The notes under the pieces: model-generated
Database searches by the model: none
Seen by the model: the letters and a program-made list of their open reading frames with translations, nothing else
Told to the model about the DNA's origin: nothing
Program-made: the position numbers and the translations under genes
IMG/VR virus record: IMGVR_UViG_3300042896_000338
Location: 1 to 25,050 of that record
Reading direction: 5' to 3' (one strand)
Source of the DNA: a virus
Length of the DNA stretch: 25,050 nt
Part shown: positions 11,638 to 17,837 of the stretch, piece after piece
Numbering within the stretch: the stretch's first letter is position 1
Layout: every line of letters starts with the position of its first letter

Positions 11638-12940
11638 TCATCTTATTAAAAATAAACGATGTGCTTTATTTATGTCAATGGGAGGTGGTAAAACATTAAG
11701 TACATTGACAGCATTGGATATATTAACTCTAGATGAAGAAGTCTACCCTGTATTAATTGTAGCACCTTTAAGAGTTGCTAAATGCGTTTGGCCAGTTGAG
11801 GTTTTAAAATGGTTTCCTAAATTAAAAGTTAATGTTATTACAGGAAGTCCTAAACAAAGACAACAGATTTTAAATAAAAACGCTGATATTTATACTATTA
11901 ATTATGAAAATTTAGAATGGTTATCATTACAAGATAACCTTAATTTTAAAACCATAGTTGTGGATGAATCATCAAAACTTAGAGGATTTAGACCAAGACA
12001 AGGAACTAAATCAACTAAGGCTTTACATAAAATTGATAAAGCCAATAGATTTATTGAATTGACAGGAACTCCTGCCCCTCAAGGGTTAATAGATTTATTT
12101 GGTCAATTGTTTTTTATAGATGAAGGTTTAAGATTAGGTAGAACTTATAGCGCATTTATTTCCAGGTTTTTTACATCACATCTAATGCCAGGCGGTTGGT
12201 CTAAGATAACCCCATATCCTCATTCTTTTAATATGGTCGTCAAACTAATAAAAGATGTATGTTTGACTATTGATGTTAAAGATTACATGCCAGTCGATGA
12301 ACCTATAGTAACTATTATAGATGTAGAACTTGATTTAAAAACAATGAATTTATATAAAGAATTAGAGCAAAACATGTTGATTGAAATAAAAGATTTACCT
12401 ATTTCTGCTACAAGTGTCGCAATAGTTTCTAATAAATGCCTTCAAGTTGCATCTGGTGCTATTTATGATGATGAAAAAACTTGGCACAAAATACATGATG
12501 AAAAATTAATAGCATTAGATTCTATTTTGGAAGAATGGTGCCATAGACCTATTATTGTTGTTTATTGGTTTAAGTCATCTCTTGAAAGATTAAAACATAA
12601 ATTTAAACATGGATTAGCGTTAGACAGTAATCCTAAAACTATTGACGATTTTAATGAAGGTAAAATACCATTGTTATTTATTCATCCACAGTCTGCAGGA
12701 CATGGTTTAAATTTAGCTGAAGGTAGTAATGTTATAGTATTTTTTGATATTAATTGGAATCTTGAATTATATCAACAGGTTATAGAAAGAATAGGTCCTA
12801 TTAGACAAAAACAAGCAGGATTAAATAGACAAGTTTATGTTTATTATTTATTAGCTAAAAATACAATAGACTTTAAAGTCATAAAAGTTTTAAAAGATAA
12901 GATGTCAATCCAAGACGCATTATTAAATGGTTTACAGTAG
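11594..12940 (+). CDS. SNF2-type superfamily 2 helicase (448 aa)
   Basis: ATP-dependent DNA translocase, probably remodelling recombination or replication forks. Motif I MSMGGGKT (27-34), Ia IVAPLRV, II VVDESSK (Asp124, Glu125), III LTGTPAPQG (157-164), V SAGHGLNL and VI QVIERIGPIRQ. Motif VI keeps both arginines (ERIGPIRQ), in a form I recall from phage SNF2 proteins rather than the usual ARxHRxGQ. ATG 11594 has GGAG 9 nt upstream and overlaps the VRR-NUC gene. The stop TAG lies inside the TTTAC-N4-GTAAA site at 12931, so the operator of the next gene extends into this coding end. Confidence 0.92.
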   Translation: MSLIRLHNYQILAVNHLIKNKRCALFMSMGGGKTLSTLTALDILTLDEEVYPVLIVAPLRVAKCVWPVEVLKWFPKLKVNVITGSPKQRQQILNKNADIYTINYENLEWLSLQDNLNFKTIVVDESSKLRGFRPRQGTKSTKALHKIDKANRFIELTGTPAPQGLIDLFGQLFFIDEGLRLGRTYSAFISRFFTSHLMPGGWSKITPYPHSFNMVVKLIKDVCLTIDVKDYMPVDEPIVTIIDVELDLKTMNLYKELEQNMLIEIKDLPISATSVAIVSNKCLQVASGAIYDDEKTWHKIHDEKLIALDSILEEWCHRPIIVVYWFKSSLERLKHKFKHGLALDSNPKTIDDFNEGKIPLLFIHPQSAGHGLNLAEGSNVIVFFDINWNLELYQQVIERIGPIRQKQAGLNRQVYVYYLLAKNTIDFKVIKVLKDKMSIQDALLNGLQ

Positions 12941-12959
12941 TAAATTTATAAGTTATAAT
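12931..12959 (+). promoter_or_regulatory. strong sigma70 promoter for the HTH gene; contains TTTAC-N4-GTAAA site 2
   Basis: TTTACA (12931-12936), exactly 17 nt, TATAAT (12954-12959). The -35 is the left half of TTTACAGTAGTAAA (12931-12944). The expected start of transcription, about 7 nt past the -10, falls at or one base before the ATG at 12967, so the mRNA would be leaderless. A protein bound to the palindrome would cover the -35 element. Confidence 0.7.
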
Positions 12960-12966
12960 CGCATTT

Positions 12967-13137
12967 ATGAAAAATCAAAAATTAATAAAACTAATGAAAG
13001 ATTACGGCTTGCGCGTTAACGATGTTGCAAGGATTCTTAATGTATCTCCAATGAGTGTTAGAATTTGGAGGTGTAAATCTGAAAGGAGTATAACTGAAAA
13101 TAATTTAAGATTGTTAGAACTAGAACTAAAAAAATAA
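12967..13137 (+). CDS. small helix-turn-helix DNA-binding regulator (56 aa)
   Basis: It reads MKNQKLIKLMKDYGLRVNDV, then ARILNVSPMSVRIWRCKSER and a short helical tail ending in LELKK. The segment NDVARILNVSPMSVRIWRC (18-36) is a clear HTH: helix 2 (DVARILN), a turn (VSP) and recognition helix (MSVRIWR), as in Cro/MerR-like regulators. The predicted transcript begins at the start codon, as for lambda cI from PRM, and there is no ribosome site upstream. A palindromic site lies over its promoter and another before the next gene, so it is the leading candidate for the TTTAC-N4-GTAAA binding protein. This is inference. Confidence 0.75.
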   Translation: MKNQKLIKLMKDYGLRVNDVARILNVSPMSVRIWRCKSERSITENNLRLLELELKK

Positions 13138-13172: not shown

Positions 13173-13574
13173 ATGATAAAAGATGTGTGGGATTTTCAAA
13201 TTAAATTTGGTCAAATAACAAATAGTACACCAAGTCATTTAACTAAAAGAAAGTTAAATGAAAGAGTTGAGTGCATGCAAGAAGAATTAGATGAGTTCAT
13301 TCAAGCATGTGAACTACAGGATCTTTCAGGTCAAGCCGATGCTTTGGTAGATTTAGTTTATTTTGCTTTAGGAACAGCAAATATGCTAGGACTTCCTTGG
13401 CAAATCCTATGGAATGATGTCCATGAGGCCAATATGAGAAAAGTCGCAGGAATAACAAAAAGGGGTCATAAAGTAGATTGTATAAAACCAGAAGGTTGGA
13501 TAGGTCCTATTACTTCTAAGATTTTAATCAATGCAGGATATAAAGGTCATAATTTGGAGCAAGATGATGAGTGA
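13173..13574 (+). CDS. MazG / PRA-PH-like nucleoside triphosphate pyrophosphohydrolase (133 aa)
   Basis: All-alpha NTP pyrophosphatase fold. The metal site is visible as EELDEF (Glu37, Glu38, Glu41) followed by the QADALVDLVY helix (Asp56, Asp60), the E-E-x-x-E / D-x-x-x-D pattern. The segment LPWQILWNDVHEANMRKV (74-91) is characteristic of phage members of this family. The reaction would hydrolyse an (d)NTP to the monophosphate and pyrophosphate. In this operon that could supply a dNMP to the downstream TS-fold enzyme and deaminase, or destroy an unmodified dNTP so that it is not incorporated. The 3' end overlaps the DUF6378-like gene by 8 nt. Confidence 0.85.
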   Translation: MIKDVWDFQIKFGQITNSTPSHLTKRKLNERVECMQEELDEFIQACELQDLSGQADALVDLVYFALGTANMLGLPWQILWNDVHEANMRKVAGITKRGHKVDCIKPEGWIGPITSKILINAGYKGHNLEQDDE

Positions 13575-13830
13575 AATAGATAAAACATTACAAGAACGTG
13601 GTAATAGATATGGAACCTTTGTTGATAACGCGATAATGTGTCAACTATTTAAAAATATTATTCGTCAAAGTCCACAACTTGAAGGTTACCATATTGAAGC
13701 ATTAGATATGATAACTCATAAGATTGCTAGGATTTTAAACGGTGATCCAAATTATGATGATTCATGGAGAGATATTGCAGGATATGCCATGTTAGTTGTA
13801 AAACATTTAGAGGAACAAAATAATGGCTAA
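13567..13830 (+). CDS. DUF6378-like phage protein (87 aa)
   Basis: Small helical protein with ERGNRYGTF (10-18), then ALDMITHKIARILNGDPNYD, then SWRDIAGYAMLV. This matches the 'ERGxRYGxF...HKIARILNGDPxxxDSWxDIAGY' signature of a common phage protein I associate with DUF6378; its activity is not known to me. I start it at ATG 13567 (MSEIDKTL), which has GGAG 7 nt upstream; the ATG at 13564 and another further upstream fit less well. It overlaps both neighbours (8 nt each), so it is part of the nucleotide operon. The conserved His, Asp and Arg pattern hints at a nucleotide-handling enzyme, but that is inference. Confidence 0.8.
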   Translation: MSEIDKTLQERGNRYGTFVDNAIMCQLFKNIIRQSPQLEGYHIEALDMITHKIARILNGDPNYDDSWRDIAGYAMLVVKHLEEQNNG

Positions 13831-14566
13831 TCCAATCGACATTGTATGGCATAATCAACTAAGTAAAGTTTTGACTTATGGTAAAGATATAGCTCCTAGA
13901 GGTCAAAATACTAAAGAATTAGTAAATCAAGTATTTGAAGTTAATATGAAATATCCAGTTTTGATTTGCCCTGAAAGAAGATTATCTTATAAATTCATGG
14001 CAGCAGAAGCATTATGGATATTATCAGGAGATAATAAAGTAGAAACTATTGCTCCATATAATAAAAATATAAAGCAATTTTCTGACGACGGTATTATTTT
14101 CCAAGGAGCTTATGGTCCTAGAATTATAAGTCAACTTGACTATGTTATTGAGAGTTTAAGAAAAGATAGAGAATCAAGACAAGCTGTATTAACAATATGG
14201 AATCCTAATCCTAAACCTAGTAAAGATATTCCATGTACGGTATCTATAACGTTTCAAATTAGAGACAATAAATTAGATTGCTTTGTATTTATGAGGTCAT
14301 CTGATTTATTTTTAGGAATCCCTTACGATGTATTTAATTTTAGTATGTTATCTCATTTAGTATGTTCTGAACTAGATAACGTAACTCCTAGAACTTTATA
14401 CTTAACTGCAGCATCATCTCATTTATATGAAACAGACTTTGAAAAAGCAATTAATTGTTTAAAATATGATTATACGTCATCAGATCCTATTCCTAAGTTA
14501 ACAAAAACTGAAATATTTAATGTTCTTCATGAGATAAGACTGACGGGTCAAGGTTGGTGGATATGA
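13823..14566 (+). CDS. thymidylate-synthase-fold enzyme, probable dCMP hydroxymethylase (247 aa)
   Basis: One-carbon transfer to C5 of a deoxypyrimidine monophosphate using methylene-tetrahydrofolate. Catalytic Cys138 is in DIPCTVSITFQI. Glu62 (AAEALWIL), the DRESRQAV phosphate loop (115-122), Arg158 (MRSSD), His200 and Tyr202 (SSHLY) match TS active-site positions. The TS residue that reads the uracil ring is Asn177 in E. coli (LGLPFN, 31 residues after the catalytic Cys); here the exact position is Asp169 in LGIPYD. Asp there is the hallmark of T4 dCMP hydroxymethylase and of TS mutants that act on dCMP. The family normally needs about 245-265 residues. Whether it adds CH3 or CH2OH needs testing. 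GAGGAA lies 7 nt before the ATG. Confidence 0.82.
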   Translation: MANPIDIVWHNQLSKVLTYGKDIAPRGQNTKELVNQVFEVNMKYPVLICPERRLSYKFMAAEALWILSGDNKVETIAPYNKNIKQFSDDGIIFQGAYGPRIISQLDYVIESLRKDRESRQAVLTIWNPNPKPSKDIPCTVSITFQIRDNKLDCFVFMRSSDLFLGIPYDVFNFSMLSHLVCSELDNVTPRTLYLTAASSHLYETDFEKAINCLKYDYTSSDPIPKLTKTEIFNVLHEIRLTGQGWWI

Positions 14567-14988
14567 GACCTGATTTAGATCAATGGGCAATGGAAATTGC
14601 AAAAGTAACAGCTTCTAGAGCTACATGTGTTAGACGCAAAGTCGGTTGTGTTTTGGTTAATAATAAAGGTTATATATTGGCAACAGGGTATAACGGCGTT
14701 CCTAAAGGACTAAATCATTGTATAGCAAATGAATGTTCAGGTTCTAATGCTTCATCAGGAACAAGATTAGATGAATGTTTAGCTGTTCATGCCGAAATGA
14801 ATGCTTTATTACAATGTAATAACGTATTTGATATTCATACAGTATATGTAACGGTTTCACCTTGCATTCATTGTATTAAAGTGTTATTAAATACTTCTTG
14901 CAAAAGAATCGTATTTTTAGAAGAATATTCGGATATTAGATCTAAAGAATTATGGTTATCTGCAGGACTTGAATGGAGTTTATTATGA
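14563..14988 (+). CDS. deoxycytidylate (dCMP) deaminase (141 aa)
   Basis: Zinc enzyme converting dCMP to dUMP. HAEMNA (His76, Glu78) and SPCIHC (Cys101, Cys104) are the complete zinc/catalytic set; the N-terminus RPDLDQWAMEIAKVTASRATC and CVLVNNKGYILATGYNGVPKG are typical. I use ATG 14563, which overlaps the previous stop by ATGA; TTG and GTG codons upstream are less likely. Coupling with a TS-fold enzyme is normal in phages, but a dCMP-specific hydroxymethylase next to a dCMP deaminase means both draw on the same substrate. With its own MazG-like enzyme upstream, this suggests deliberate remodelling of the pyrimidine pool. Confidence 0.95.
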   Translation: MRPDLDQWAMEIAKVTASRATCVRRKVGCVLVNNKGYILATGYNGVPKGLNHCIANECSGSNASSGTRLDECLAVHAEMNALLQCNNVFDIHTVYVTVSPCIHCIKVLLNTSCKRIVFLEEYSDIRSKELWLSAGLEWSLL

Positions 14989-15863
14989 TTTTTAATCCTT
15001 TTACACCTATTCCAAAATCTGACAAATCCCATGTCAGAGGATGGGCACAACATTGGGCAGAATGTCTAGATGTATCGATTGCTGATAAAAGTACTAGTCT
15101 TAAAGGAGATTTATATTTAGACCATGGTGTAAACTTTGGAGGAACATTAAATTTATTTGGAGGAGTTAGTGATGAACTAGTTGATCGTATTATAGAAATG
15201 ATTGACTGTCCAGGAGAACTTTATAGTTTGGATATAGATATGCCTGATTATGATGGAATGTTACGAAAAAGAGGAGTCACTATCACAGGATTAAAGGAAA
15301 GATTAGAAAGAGCTATAACTCTTAAACAATCCAATTTTCACAATAAATATAAAGTATTTGGCGATAGTCATGCCACAGCATTTGCTCCTAAAAACTCTCA
15401 TATTATTAGAAATAATGGAATGACTTTATATAGAGCATTAGAAGATAATCTTATTCCAGAAGATACAGATTTAGTAGTATTAGGATCTATAGATATACGC
15501 CATCATATAGGTCGTCAAAAAGATTTATCAATCGTAGATCTTGCTGATAGACTTGCTATGTTTGTGTTTGACAACAACATGTCTGTAGCAGCACCTGTTC
15601 CTGTAGAATATGAAGCTCGTAAAATACCACAAACAGGATTTTATAAAGGACAACCTTTTACAGGGAAAAGACACGAACGACTTGCATGGACATTTTTATT
15701 TATAAATACACTTATAGATTTAGGAGTCAATGTGGTATCACCTCCTATGGAATGGTATACCATGGACCCTGAAGATTATGCTAAAGAGTATATGGAATTA
15801 AGTAGTTCTGTACATATTTCACCAAGACATTATAGAAGATACGGAGGATGGGATAATGTTTGA
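14985..15863 (+). CDS. SGNH/GDSL-like protein in the nucleotide operon (292 aa)
   Basis: Possible SGNH-fold hydrolase or transferase. Residues about 125-292 contain VFGDSHA (block I, nucleophile Ser), DLVVLGSIDIRHHIGR (block with GSID and R-H-H), and near the end SSSVHISPRHYR (block V-like His). The N-terminal 125 residues are a separate region (WAQHWAECLDVS, LYLDHGVNFGGTLNLFGG) that I do not recognise. Start ATG 14985 overlaps the deaminase stop (ATGA) and has GGAG 6 nt upstream; an in-frame ATG at 14973 is less likely. SGNH enzymes move or remove acyl groups; here the partner could be a modified nucleotide, DNA or a sugar. Function is inferred only from motif shape and operon position. Confidence 0.55.
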   Translation: MIFNPFTPIPKSDKSHVRGWAQHWAECLDVSIADKSTSLKGDLYLDHGVNFGGTLNLFGGVSDELVDRIIEMIDCPGELYSLDIDMPDYDGMLRKRGVTITGLKERLERAITLKQSNFHNKYKVFGDSHATAFAPKNSHIIRNNGMTLYRALEDNLIPEDTDLVVLGSIDIRHHIGRQKDLSIVDLADRLAMFVFDNNMSVAAPVPVEYEARKIPQTGFYKGQPFTGKRHERLAWTFLFINTLIDLGVNVVSPPMEWYTMDPEDYAKEYMELSSSVHISPRHYRRYGGWDNV

Positions 15864-16722
15864 AATAACTAAAGATACATCAAATAAAGATGCTTTATTT
15901 ACAAAAGATCAATATTTACGCATGCTCACAGGTTTTGAATCAAAAATTAATGAACCTGTTATTGAAAAATGGAATGATAGATATATTTTTAGAGGAGATT
16001 TATCAGCAACTAGTTTAAAAGGTTATGGTGCTGAACCTTTAATTTCAAGTATTAGAGAAAATGTATTGGTTTATTGTGCGCCAAGAGCAGGAGCTGCTGC
16101 TAATGCTGTAGCTACTATTGCCAAATTGTATAATAAAAAATGCATATTCTTTTGTCCAGCGTCTAAAGTTGCATCAGATCATCAAGCCTCATTAATGAAT
16201 TTTGATAATGTGGAACTTAGATTTGTAAAAATTGCAGCAATGCCTACTTTAAATATTTATGCTAAAAGATGGGCAGAACAAAAAGGAGCAAAATTTTTAC
16301 CATTTGGATTATCAGGAGTTCCTACAGTAACAGCAGGACTTATTTATACAGCATCACGCATGAATATTGATCCATCAGAAGTTTGGATGAGTGTCTCTAC
16401 AGGAACCGCAATACGCGCGTTTGAGATAGCGTGGCCTGACGCAAATATAAAAGGAATAGTAGTGGCTAGGAATATGAAACCAGGTGAGATAGGAAAGGCC
16501 GATTTGATGTCTGCTACTATTCCTTTTTTAAAACCTGCAAAAAATCTTCCTCATTTTCCAACAACTGTAGCTTATGACGGTAAAGCTTGGGAAAGATTTG
16601 AAAAAGAGTCTAAACCAGGGTCAATATTTATGAACGTATCGTGTGATGCTAATATATCAAAACCCTATAATGGGGTTATTGATTCTCATAGAGAATGGTA
16701 TGACTTTAAGGATTTAAGATGA
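15856..16722 (+). CDS. fold-type-II PLP-enzyme-like protein (288 aa)
   Basis: Resembles TrpB/ACC-deaminase-type pyridoxal-phosphate enzymes. The order of elements fits. FRGDLSATSLKGYGAEPL contains a candidate PLP Lys in SLKGYG. CAPRAGAAANAVATIAKLY resembles the substrate loop and helix. CIFFCPASKVASDHQA comes next, then KGAKFLPFGLSGVPTVTAGL, and VSTGTAIRAFEIAW is the position of the Gly-rich phosphate loop. Not a perfect match: the usual GGxxSN motif is replaced by APRAGAAAN. GGAGG lies 8 nt before the ATG, and the start overlaps the SGNH gene by 8 nt. PLP enzymes occur in phage pathways that tailor hydroxymethylated bases with amino-acid-derived groups, which would fit its neighbours. A phosphoribosyltransferase-like fold is an alternative. 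Confidence 0.6.
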   Translation: MFEITKDTSNKDALFTKDQYLRMLTGFESKINEPVIEKWNDRYIFRGDLSATSLKGYGAEPLISSIRENVLVYCAPRAGAAANAVATIAKLYNKKCIFFCPASKVASDHQASLMNFDNVELRFVKIAAMPTLNIYAKRWAEQKGAKFLPFGLSGVPTVTAGLIYTASRMNIDPSEVWMSVSTGTAIRAFEIAWPDANIKGIVVARNMKPGEIGKADLMSATIPFLKPAKNLPHFPTTVAYDGKAWERFEKESKPGSIFMNVSCDANISKPYNGVIDSHREWYDFKDLR

Positions 16723-17837
16723 ACATCGAAACCACGGTTTATTACGATGAGTTCCTTCGATATTATGAAATGGCAAAAATTCAACAAAAAGAATGTAATT
16801 TAGGTTTTATTCCTCATACGGAATCATCAATAAATGATGATCTTATGAAGAATGTTCATTTGTACGATGTGGTCAATAGAAAGTACGCAGGATTTAGTCA
16901 AATACTATTAGATATGTGGCACGGTTTAGATCTTGATCATCCATATTTTGGAAAACTTCATAATGTTAGACTTCCTATATGTGAAAAGTTTGGAAATCAA
17001 GAATGGGGTATTAAAGAATGGTTGTACGTGTTCATGGTGCATAGAGTTACAGGATCTGGTATTAACTACGCAAAAAATCCTAGTGGTTACCATAATACTA
17101 TTTTGCCTGAGTTTCATGATTGTGAAACAGTCGACGAAATGGTATCTAAAGTATGTCAATATAAAGGCGCTATGTATACGTCTGTTGGTTATCAATTTCC
17201 AGCTTTCCCAAAGCCTACTAGTTCATATAAAAGAGGTGGCGATTATTTTTTATGTGAATATGCTCCTAAACTTATTAATGATTTTTATAAATGGTTAGTT
17301 CCTGTTACGTCATTTAGGGATGCAATGGATTTTCTAGTAAACTGGAATAAAGATCAAGGATTAAGGGCGTTTAAATTTCAATATGCGGCATTTTTAGCAG
17401 ATGTTGCTGATTTTTATCCAGACTTAATAAATTCAGAATCTTTATTTTTTTACGGTACTAATGCTCGTGAATGTATTAAATACATGGCAAAACCTAAAGG
17501 GAAGATGAATGAACAAGACTTTTTAGATTTAGTGACAGAGAAAGCCTGTGAAGACACAGGAGGCATTCCCTATGATGTAGAAGACGTCATGTGCGATAGT
17601 ATTAGATGGATTGAGAATTATATTAAACCAGGTAAAGATTATGACCATATTTGTCGAGATTCTACATGGAATAGTTCTAAAATTAAAAATCACCCGTTTG
17701 GTCGTCAAAAGGCAATGTTAGAGTTAGGGTTAATAAAATCATTTAATAATTTAAATGTTCATCCTTCTGATGACTATATTTTAAAAATAAATGAAATTAA
17801 TGTTGAAAATTATGTTTACAAATGTAAATATTTATGA
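16719..17837 (+). CDS. uncharacterised helical protein, candidate base-hypermodification enzyme (372 aa)
   Basis: I do not recognise this protein with confidence. It is mainly alpha-helical and rich in Trp, Tyr and Phe. Notable segments are HTESSINDDLM (29-39), DVVNRKYAGF, FMVHRVTGSGINYAKNPSGY (128-147) with a GSG turn, and LRAFKFQYAAFLADVADFYP followed by FFYGTNAREC. Those last two are reminiscent of the glycosylase-like helical core of phage aGPT-PPlase or 5-hmdU-kinase helical domains, where a helix is followed by a 'GPGAR'-type loop. That comparison is weak and from memory. No P-loop is present, so it is not itself a kinase. It starts by ATGA overlap with the PLP-like gene, last of five coupled genes, so it very likely works with them. 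Confidence 0.45.
   Translation: MNIETTVYYDEFLRYYEMAKIQQKECNLGFIPHTESSINDDLMKNVHLYDVVNRKYAGFSQILLDMWHGLDLDHPYFGKLHNVRLPICEKFGNQEWGIKEWLYVFMVHRVTGSGINYAKNPSGYHNTILPEFHDCETVDEMVSKVCQYKGAMYTSVGYQFPAFPKPTSSYKRGGDYFLCEYAPKLINDFYKWLVPVTSFRDAMDFLVNWNKDQGLRAFKFQYAAFLADVADFYPDLINSESLFFYGTNARECIKYMAKPKGKMNEQDFLDLVTEKACEDTGGIPYDVEDVMCDSIRWIENYIKPGKDYDHICRDSTWNSSKIKNHPFGRQKAMLELGLIKSFNNLNVHPSDDYILKINEINVENYVYKCKYL

Follow-up and report, generated by a model that had tools for sequence, protein, structure and literature searches.

A conserved operon of uncultured phages predicted to direct amino-acid-type hypermodification of cytosine

To our knowledge, amino acid decorations of the kind considered here occur only on thymine-type bases. 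In phage M6, the gene for the PLP enzyme gp52, which we take to be a decarboxylase, adjoins the genes for the amino acid:DNA transferase (ADDT) gp51 and the radical SAM protein gp53, with HMUDK_hel gp55 encoded close by; the ADDT, aGPT-Pplase and HMUDK_hel enzymes form a group that decorates hydroxymethyluracil (hmU) DNA. The phage bases known to carry amino-acid-derived groups start from hydroxymethyl-uracil, and the known decorations of hydroxymethylcytosine (hmC) are sugars or carbamoyl groups (PMC8670742; PMC13390438). The operon described here, which appears to join hmC with amino acid chemistry, lies in a stretch of 25,050 nucleotides of the IMG/VR virus record IMGVR_UViG_3300042896_000338, referred to below as the window.

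Operon layout and gene linkage

Positions 13173–17837 of the window contain seven co-directional open reading frames on the + strand (Table 1). Neighbouring genes overlap by a few bases, as the sequence-only reading had stated and as is read directly from the DNA. The stop of the MazG gene at 13574 lies downstream of the ATG of the DUF6378 gene (13564/13567), and the ATG of the thymidylate synthase (TS)-fold gene at 13823 lies upstream of the DUF6378 stop at 13830. ATGA motifs are common to the TS and dCMP deaminase genes (14563–14566), the deaminase and SGNH genes (14985–14988), and the PALP and P7 genes (16719–16722), and SGNH overlaps PALP at 15856–15863. Because of the ATGA overlaps, the deaminase probably starts at 14563 rather than at TTG 14554, and SGNH at 14985 rather than at 14973; residue numbers of the SGNH protein are nevertheless counted from the ORF start at 14973. 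The earlier gene list holds for the genes it named and omits DUF6378, whose position in relatives is occupied by DUF6378 or other small proteins. A promoter scan of the operon gave none above shuffles, and a terminator scan at its end gave nothing convincing. P8 (17877–18335) was dropped from the system, its relatives being solely copies of the same phage.

Table 1. Genes of the operon, with the evidence for their assignment
Feature	Coordinates	Strand	Evidence
MazG-like nucleotide pyrophosphohydrolase (pool cleaning)	13173..13574	+	PF01503 3.5e-16, above cut-off; PHROG nucleotide pyrophosphohydrolase
DUF6378 protein	13567..13830	+	PF19905 1.5e-7, above cut-off; ORF from 13531, ATG 13564/13567 likelier
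TS-fold enzyme, dCMP type (predicted dCMP hydroxymethylase)	13823..14566	+	PF00303 (thymidylate synthase) 1.1e-28
dCMP deaminase	14563..14988	+	PF00383 4e-22; phrog_174 dCMP deaminase 1.5e-40; ATGA-overlap start
SGNH/GDSL-fold protein	14985..15863	+	AF2 and Foldseek; no Pfam match
PLP fold-type-II (PALP) enzyme, M6 gp52 homologue	15856..16722	+	phrog_7093 1.7e-43
P7, helical protein, 372 aa	16719..17837	+	AF2 and Foldseek fold match; no Pfam match

The SGNH, PALP and P7 genes form a real conserved module. On viral contigs, within 3 kb flanks, P7 is present in 40/40 SGNH-seeded loci and PALP and TS in 35/40 each, and 44 of the 47 PALP-seeded loci contain both SGNH and P7. Frequent companions of the module are c3, a paralogue of P7, and a dCMP-type TS; loci seeded with c3 contain SGNH and PALP in 29 of 30 cases and P7 in all 30. 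In nine phage-like contigs binned into MAGs, SGNH lies beside PALP in every one and P7 is found in eight. The neighbourhood search for SGNH–PLP–372-aa triplets with hydroxymethylases, which the sequence-only reading had proposed, was thus positive. Since conserved neighbourhoods with varied gene orders recur in more than 100 viral loci, the association of the operon genes is not due to chance. Carriers include unrelated contigs, T4-like and small phages, and the operon is widespread among uncultured phages; in a collection of 50,697 phage records, P7 had no match. Several observations weigh against the pathway proposed below: PALP, c3 or a nearby TS is missing from some loci, P7 and c3 stand alone within about 7 kb in 11/41 P7-seeded loci, and TS is absent from five records, four of them longer than 80 kb, which may be fragments.

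Substrate base and predicted folds

The TS-fold enzyme carries the nucleophile Cys138, and its Thr139 and Asp169 correspond to positions 147 and 177 of E. coli TS. The combination Asp177/Thr147 was found in 39/39 module TS of a first set and 38/39 of a second, as well as in a third deep lineage (L194); elsewhere, dTMP synthases have Asn/His at these positions, and the M6 and PaMx11 enzymes have Asn/Asn. The residue code of the window TS is that of T4 gp42, unlike that of dTMP synthases or dUMP hydroxymethylases. Asp at position 177, together with position 147, has been tied to cytosine-modified viral contigs (MetaGPA, PMC8670742). A profile of the module TS, composed mostly of gp42-type members, matches T4 dCMP hydroxymethylase at 2e-100, the next best match being at about 1e-23. 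In the tree, the TS of most relatives fall inside the gp42-type group (support 98/99), and those of the window and of loci L089 and L090 lie outside it. The idea that the dCMP-type TS lineages arose independently of one another was dropped, the tree being compatible with a single origin. The substrate base is most likely cytosine, and the residue code and the gp42-type relatives point to hmC; the window enzyme, not gp42 itself, could be a dCMP methylase.

The predicted structure of P7 (AF2 pLDDT 90.6) was compared with BFVD by Foldseek. Beyond its own close family, the matches were ADDT (E 9e-4, prob 1.00), aGPT-Pplase clade 1 (prob 1.00) and HMUDK_hel of phiW-14 (prob 0.97) and phiRSL1 (0.96), at identities of 9–14% and E values of 9e-4 to 0.08. 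In the PDB, the top match by probability was the PaMx11 5-PmdU glycinyltransferase (0.33, not significant). By its structural model, P7 has the fold of the ADDT, aGPT-Pplase and HMUDK_hel group; the structure search suggested earlier for this 372-aa protein therefore placed it with DNA-hypermodification enzymes. H108, G112, S113, K165, D228, G246, N248, E288, D289, C292 and R296 are invariant in 120/120 sequences. E288 and C292 would fit a C-terminal E-x-x-x-C motif, and visual inspection of ADDT and HMUDK sequences showed an E..C arrangement. Two results weigh against this placement. No Pfam model matched P7 at threshold, including PF18723 and PF18724, which likewise matched none of 30 members of the P7 alignment, and hhalign scores of P7 and c3 against ADDT and HMUDK_hel profiles did not exceed those of negative controls, or did so by very little; the link to these enzymes therefore rests on the fold. 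Pfam and PDB sequence profiles gave nothing usable for P7 or c3.

PALP and M6 gp52 matched each other in both search directions (hhalign 96%), and PALP members were the sole matches with gp52 as the query. Sequence comparison thus indicates that PALP is homologous to gp52, encoded beside the ADDT of M6. Its Pfam match is sub-threshold only (4.3e-4), and other Pfam and PDB profiles gave nothing usable. Lys55, invariant in 136/136 members including distant relatives, is the predicted Schiff-base lysine, judging by the alignment and a motif read by eye. In other phages, PALP homologues occur within or next to ParB-DNA methyltransferase genes; no match was found in Aeromonas phages. The gp52 homology of PALP and the fold of P7 place neither protein in ordinary salvage or in lipid or sugar metabolism.

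The SGNH protein was modelled with a pLDDT of 90.3, and Foldseek matched it to SGNH esterases (prob 1.0, E 2e-3); the model assigns it to the SGNH esterase fold, which agrees with the initial SGNH-like call. Residues G130-D131-S132-H133, D174, R176, H178, E275 and H281 are invariant in 144/144 sequences. Block I, GDS with the putative catalytic Ser132, is present as GDSH in all 144; in block V, His281 is invariant, and position 278, where Asp would be expected three residues before it, usually holds S, K, Q or G. The N-terminal part weakly resembles T4 beta-glucosyltransferase (BGT), with PF09198 at E 9e-5 and 0.003, below the cut-off, and hhalign at E 8e-4 against the N-terminal domain of BGT. 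No full-length GT domain was found, the remainder having the SGNH fold; no Pfam model matched at threshold, and Pfam and PDB sequence profiles gave nothing usable beyond the weak BGT signal. The counterpart of the catalytic Asp100 of BGT in the alignment is D87, a residue conserved in 117/144 members but not in all, and no glucosyl transfer is therefore claimed for SGNH.

Proposed pathway and alternative explanations

On balance, the operon probably encodes a cytosine-directed, amino-acid-type DNA hypermodification pathway as in M6 and ViI, moved to cytosine. We infer all its reactions from the observed gene content, conservation, linkage, residue codes and folds. MazG, DUF6378 and dCMP deaminase would shape the deoxypyrimidine pool. 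The TS-fold enzyme, as its residue code and relatives suggest, would convert dCMP to 5-hydroxymethyl-dCMP, to be copied into phage DNA as hmC. SGNH may then act on the hydroxymethyl group in DNA, speculatively most likely as an acyltransferase that activates this group in place of the DNA kinase of M6, and its N-terminal part may derive from an hmC-DNA-recognising domain like that of BGT. P7, sometimes with c3, would flip the base and join an amino acid or similar amine, as its fold indicates, and PALP would use PLP to rework the amino acid once attached, for instance decarboxylating it, the activity ascribed to its homologue gp52. The pathway would thereby yield a hypermodified cytosine, derived from an amino acid, that hides the DNA from host nucleases. 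The earlier proposal that the operon makes and then decorates a hydroxymethylpyrimidine is thus supported by the neighbourhoods, the predicted P7 fold and the gp52 homology, and is refined here to cytosine as the most likely base. No homologue of the M6-type P-loop hmdU DNA kinase (gp54) was found in the loci or in 14 module-bearing records, possibly fragments and searched without a positive control, so the activation step is left without an enzyme of the M6 type, which weighs against the pathway. That SGNH is an hmC-DNA acyltransferase making an ester leaving group, for which P7/c3 substitute an amino acid that PALP trims, is a tentative proposal and somewhat doubtful; if true, it would mark the first time that cytosine in DNA is modified with an amino-acid-derived group, and the first time that such bases arise without a kinase.

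A variant of T4/RB69-like glycosylation, in which the operon makes hmC plus a sugar that SGNH acylates or trims, with PALP and P7 supporting, appears rather unlikely. The BGT-like similarity, the UDP-glucose dehydrogenase and epimerase genes within the module in several loci, and the Aeromonas phage 25 SGNH homologue adjoining UDP-galactopyranose mutase agree with it. However, the window operon has no complete glycosyltransferase, the BGT similarity is confined to the N-terminal part of an otherwise SGNH protein, most loci lack sugar-nucleotide genes, and P7 and PALP indicate amino acid chemistry. It is improbable that the TS-fold enzyme uses dUMP supplied by the deaminase, or that, as in M6 and ViI, the finished base derives from hmU: although relatives of PALP and P7 are known from hmU phages, and M6 also encodes a putative dCMP deaminase, T4, a gp42 phage, has such a deaminase too, the TS relatives are of the gp42 type, and Asp177/Thr147 in nearly all module TS, three deep lineages included, contrasts with Asn in the two hmU phages.

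Slightly less probable still is a dCMP methylase producing 5mC, as in XP12, with the last three genes modifying, for example, adenine or guanine. The window TS is not of the gp42 type, an Asn177Asp change in a TS can yield 5mdCMP (PMC8670742), and the ParB-DNA methyltransferase contexts of PALP homologues would fit; most loci, however, pair the same trio with gp42-type hydroxymethylases, and the known attachment point of ADDT-type enzymes is a hydroxymethyl group. Ordinary nucleotide metabolism beside three unrelated accessory genes, adjacent by chance, is very improbable: MazG and dCMP deaminase are commonplace in phages, but the linkage is conserved in varied orders across the unrelated carriers, which already disfavours this explanation, and the folds are tied to DNA hypermodification. 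A module of the favoured cytosine-directed, amino-acid type would widen DNA chemistry, point to new hmC-labelling enzymes and suggest a counter-defence borne by many uncultured phages.

Comparison with known systems

In the 5hmC carbamoyltransferase system of viral contigs, a dCMP-type TS likewise has MazG and dCMP deaminase genes in its neighbourhood (MetaGPA, PMC8670742), but the system has a carbamoyltransferase where the operon has SGNH-PALP-P7 and no carbamoyltransferase domain detected by Pfam. Aeromonas phage 44RR2.8t, which bears gp42, encodes an SGNH homologue (ORF233, 795 aa, 30% identical) that, unlike the operon protein, is joined in one polypeptide with a part resembling HMUDK_hel below threshold. 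This fusion speaks for the proposed pathway, and no BGT match was found in phage 44RR. T4 shares with the operon a dCMP hydroxymethylase, gp42-type in the operon's relatives, and a dCMP deaminase. Its BGT is echoed by the N-terminal part of SGNH, although the operon lacks a complete glucosyltransferase, and the T4 pathway lacks the PLP and P7 enzymes. M6 (5-NedU; compare Salmonella ViI, 5-NeOmdU) and the operon have in common a TS-fold hydroxymethylase, an enzyme of the ADDT/HMUDK_hel fold and a PLP enzyme of the gp52 family. The M6 TS is of the dUMP type, with Asn at 177, whereas that of the operon is of the dCMP type, with Asp; M6 uses a P-loop DNA kinase in place of SGNH and has a radical SAM gene not seen for the operon, and P7 is distant from ADDT in sequence. 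Overall, the operon resembles the amino acid route of M6 and ViI more than T4 glycosylation.

Operon layout and linkage of its genes

The window, 25,050 bases of a virus record, carries structural genes (scaffold, portal, terminase) on the minus strand and most replication genes (exonuclease, ssDNA-binding protein, DNA polymerase, helicase) on the plus strand. Directly after the replication genes lies the run of seven genes with few-base overlaps described in the sequence-only reading, in which ATGA is present at three junctions. Pfam matches were obtained for MazG, DUF6378, thymidylate synthase and dCMP deaminase; the PLP fold-II enzyme (PALP) matched below the cut-off, and the esterase-fold protein (SGNH) and the 372-aa helical protein (P7) had no match in the Pfam search. 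In PHROGs, SGNH matches phrog_13881 of unknown function (5e-49) and PALP matches phrog_7093, "threonine dehydratase" (2e-43). A small HTH protein, a possible regulator, is encoded just upstream of the operon, preceded by a TTTACA-N17-TATAAT match of a kind not enriched relative to shuffled sequences.

Profile scans with SGNH and PALP alignments over 2.9 million viral contigs yielded more than 450 relatives of each, 80 being retained. In their neighbourhoods the genes for the TS-fold enzyme, dCMP deaminase, SGNH, PALP and P7 are co-located in variable order, both in T4-like contigs (recognised on visual inspection by genes resembling those for UvsX, helicase and family-B polymerase, with ThyX assigned by Pfam) and in smaller window-like phages. 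The triplet co-occurrence for which a neighbourhood search had been proposed was thus borne out: in locus counts that, like those below, include near-copies and are not independent events, P7 is present in 40/40 SGNH-seeded loci, PALP and TS each in 35/40, and SGNH together with P7 in 44 of the 47 PALP-seeded loci (at least 3 kb of flank required on each side for both seeds). Loci seeded with c3, which is paralogous to P7 (hhalign 87%, E 4.5e-6), contain P7 in 30/30 cases and SGNH with PALP in 29/30. Around P7 itself, SGNH occurs in 29 of 41 loci, and P7 and c3 stand alone within about 7 kb in 11 of 41. In one of the latter (L216) the upstream gene resembles, by eye, an HhH DNA glycosylase. 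The same association is seen in nine phage-like contigs taken from bacterial MAG bins; the bins of these contigs (L184-L192), from Rhodobacteraceae, Gallionella, Opitutales and others, are either possible host hints or binning errors.

Some loci carry additional genes. UDP-glucose dehydrogenase and/or NAD-dependent epimerase genes within the module suggest a sugar nucleotide in part of the family. Phage-encoded serine hydroxymethyltransferase (PF00464), found in the module or near PALP alone, could be a source of methylene-THF and glycine. UDG-superfamily proteins also occur in the module; gp48 of Pseudomonas phage M6, near its amino acid:DNA transferase (ADDT), is a sub-threshold match to this superfamily.

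Locations of the operon and related features
Feature	Position	Strand
Seven-gene operon	window 13173-17837	+
Small HTH protein	window 12967-13137	
TTTACA-N17-TATAAT match	window 12931-12959	
P7-c3 pair with neither SGNH nor PALP inside about 7 kb	L216:6128-9644	
UDP-glucose dehydrogenase and/or epimerase in module	L035:10838-12618; L037; L065; L067; L082	
Serine hydroxymethyltransferase	L051; L059; L135-L138	
UDG-superfamily proteins in module	L097:1365-1778; L160:6833-7339	
PALP loci tied to ParB/methyltransferase genes (ZS04, R6L, Mae-JY30)	L009:2326-4764; L007; L008:8207-10525	
Aeromonas phage SGNH loci (44RR, phage 25)	L005:6992-9379; L006:4767-8038	

The TS-fold enzyme and the predicted modified base

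In the window TS, the residues aligned with E. coli positions 146, 147 and 177 are Cys138, Thr139 and Asp169. Thr/Asp at 147/177 is found in 39/39 module enzymes of a first set and in 38/39 of a second, the odd one out being a canonical synthase. The dCMP hydroxymethylases (gp42) of T4 and Aeromonas phages have the same pair; the pair is His/Asn in T4-like dTMP synthases and Asn/Asn in the enzymes of M6 and PaMx11. In the MetaGPA study these two positions mark cytosine-modified viral contigs best, and MazG and dCMP deaminase are among the domains co-occurring there with carbamoyltransferase and TS (PMC8670742). The L194 TS, a third deep lineage, again has Thr/Asp; it lies in the record of L152, a 176-kb phage with the trio, and a sister record has a canonical synthase as its sole TS. 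The module-TS profile, mostly of gp42 type, matches T4 dCMP hydroxymethylase at 2e-100 (runner-up about 1e-23). Since the window TS forms a lineage of its own with those of L089 and L090 in the tree, it is from context that this enzyme probably hydroxymethylates rather than methylates. The tree is compatible with one or several origins of Asp at 177.

The SGNH, P7 and PALP proteins

The SGNH model (pLDDT 90.3) matches SGNH esterases (probability 1.0, E 2e-3). Among 144 members, Ser132, Asp174, Arg176, His178, Glu275 and His281 are invariant and the Asp that normally precedes the His is absent. The N-terminal part has a weak likeness to T4 beta-glucosyltransferase (BGT; Pfam E 0.0016 in two members, hhalign E 8e-4), and a BGT-profile search of 14 module-bearing records gave two matches in all (9e-5 and 0.003), both mapping by coordinates to the L134 and L106 SGNH genes. 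In Aeromonas phage 44RR an SGNH homologue is fused to a sub-threshold HMUDK_hel-like part, and in phage 25 an unfused SGNH lies close to UDP-galactopyranose mutase and a 358-aa protein without a name; the two phages have gp42 and lack a BGT match.

The P7 model is helical and confident (pLDDT 90.6). Its best viral-model match (51% identity) is annotated as an amino acid:DNA transferase domain, and the named matches outside its close family are ADDT (E 9e-4), aGPT-Pplase clade 1 and HMUDK_hel of phiW-14 and phiRSL1, with probabilities of 0.96-1.00. Against the PDB the top match by probability, PaMx11 5-PmdU glycinyltransferase, was not significant; sequence profiles alone did not reach significance, and P7 was found in 0 of 50,697 phage records.

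Lee et al. 2022 reportedly describes decarboxylation of the attached glycine by gp52 of M6. Used as a query on all module-locus ORFs, gp52 matched PALP-family members and nothing else, and the PALP profile in turn retrieves gp52; all 136 PALP members compared share the putative Schiff-base lysine. The genes next to that of gp52 encode ADDT (gp51) and a radical SAM enzyme; gp54 (a P-loop protein by its motif), a dUMP-type TS and HMUDK_hel gp55 are encoded nearby. PALP also occurs as a domain within a ParB-N6/N4 DNA methyltransferase gene of Erythrobacter phages ZS04 and R6L, and as a gene of its own, with ParB-like and methyltransferase genes next to it, in Microcystis phage Mae-JY30, perhaps another DNA-modification role of this PLP family.

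Proposed pathway and comparison with M6 and T4

As deduced from fold and homology, pool cleaning and the dCMP-type enzyme would lead to hydroxymethylcytosine in phage DNA, on whose hydroxymethyl group SGNH would then work; P7, with or without c3, would attach an amino acid, which PALP would rework. M6 DNA contains 5-(2-aminoethyl)-dU, thought to arise after a kinase phosphorylates hydroxymethyluracil in DNA (PMC6449724). Relatives of this kinase were detected neither in module loci nor in 14 module-bearing records, the latter searched without a positive control. SGNH is a natural candidate for an alternative activation, which would be the most speculative step of the pathway. A literature search, whose coverage missed key papers of the field, returned no account of such a system. 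Because defining features of the M6 system and of the T4 system, tested on the module, do not hold for it, the module is placed outside both and classed as a new form of phage DNA hypermodification.
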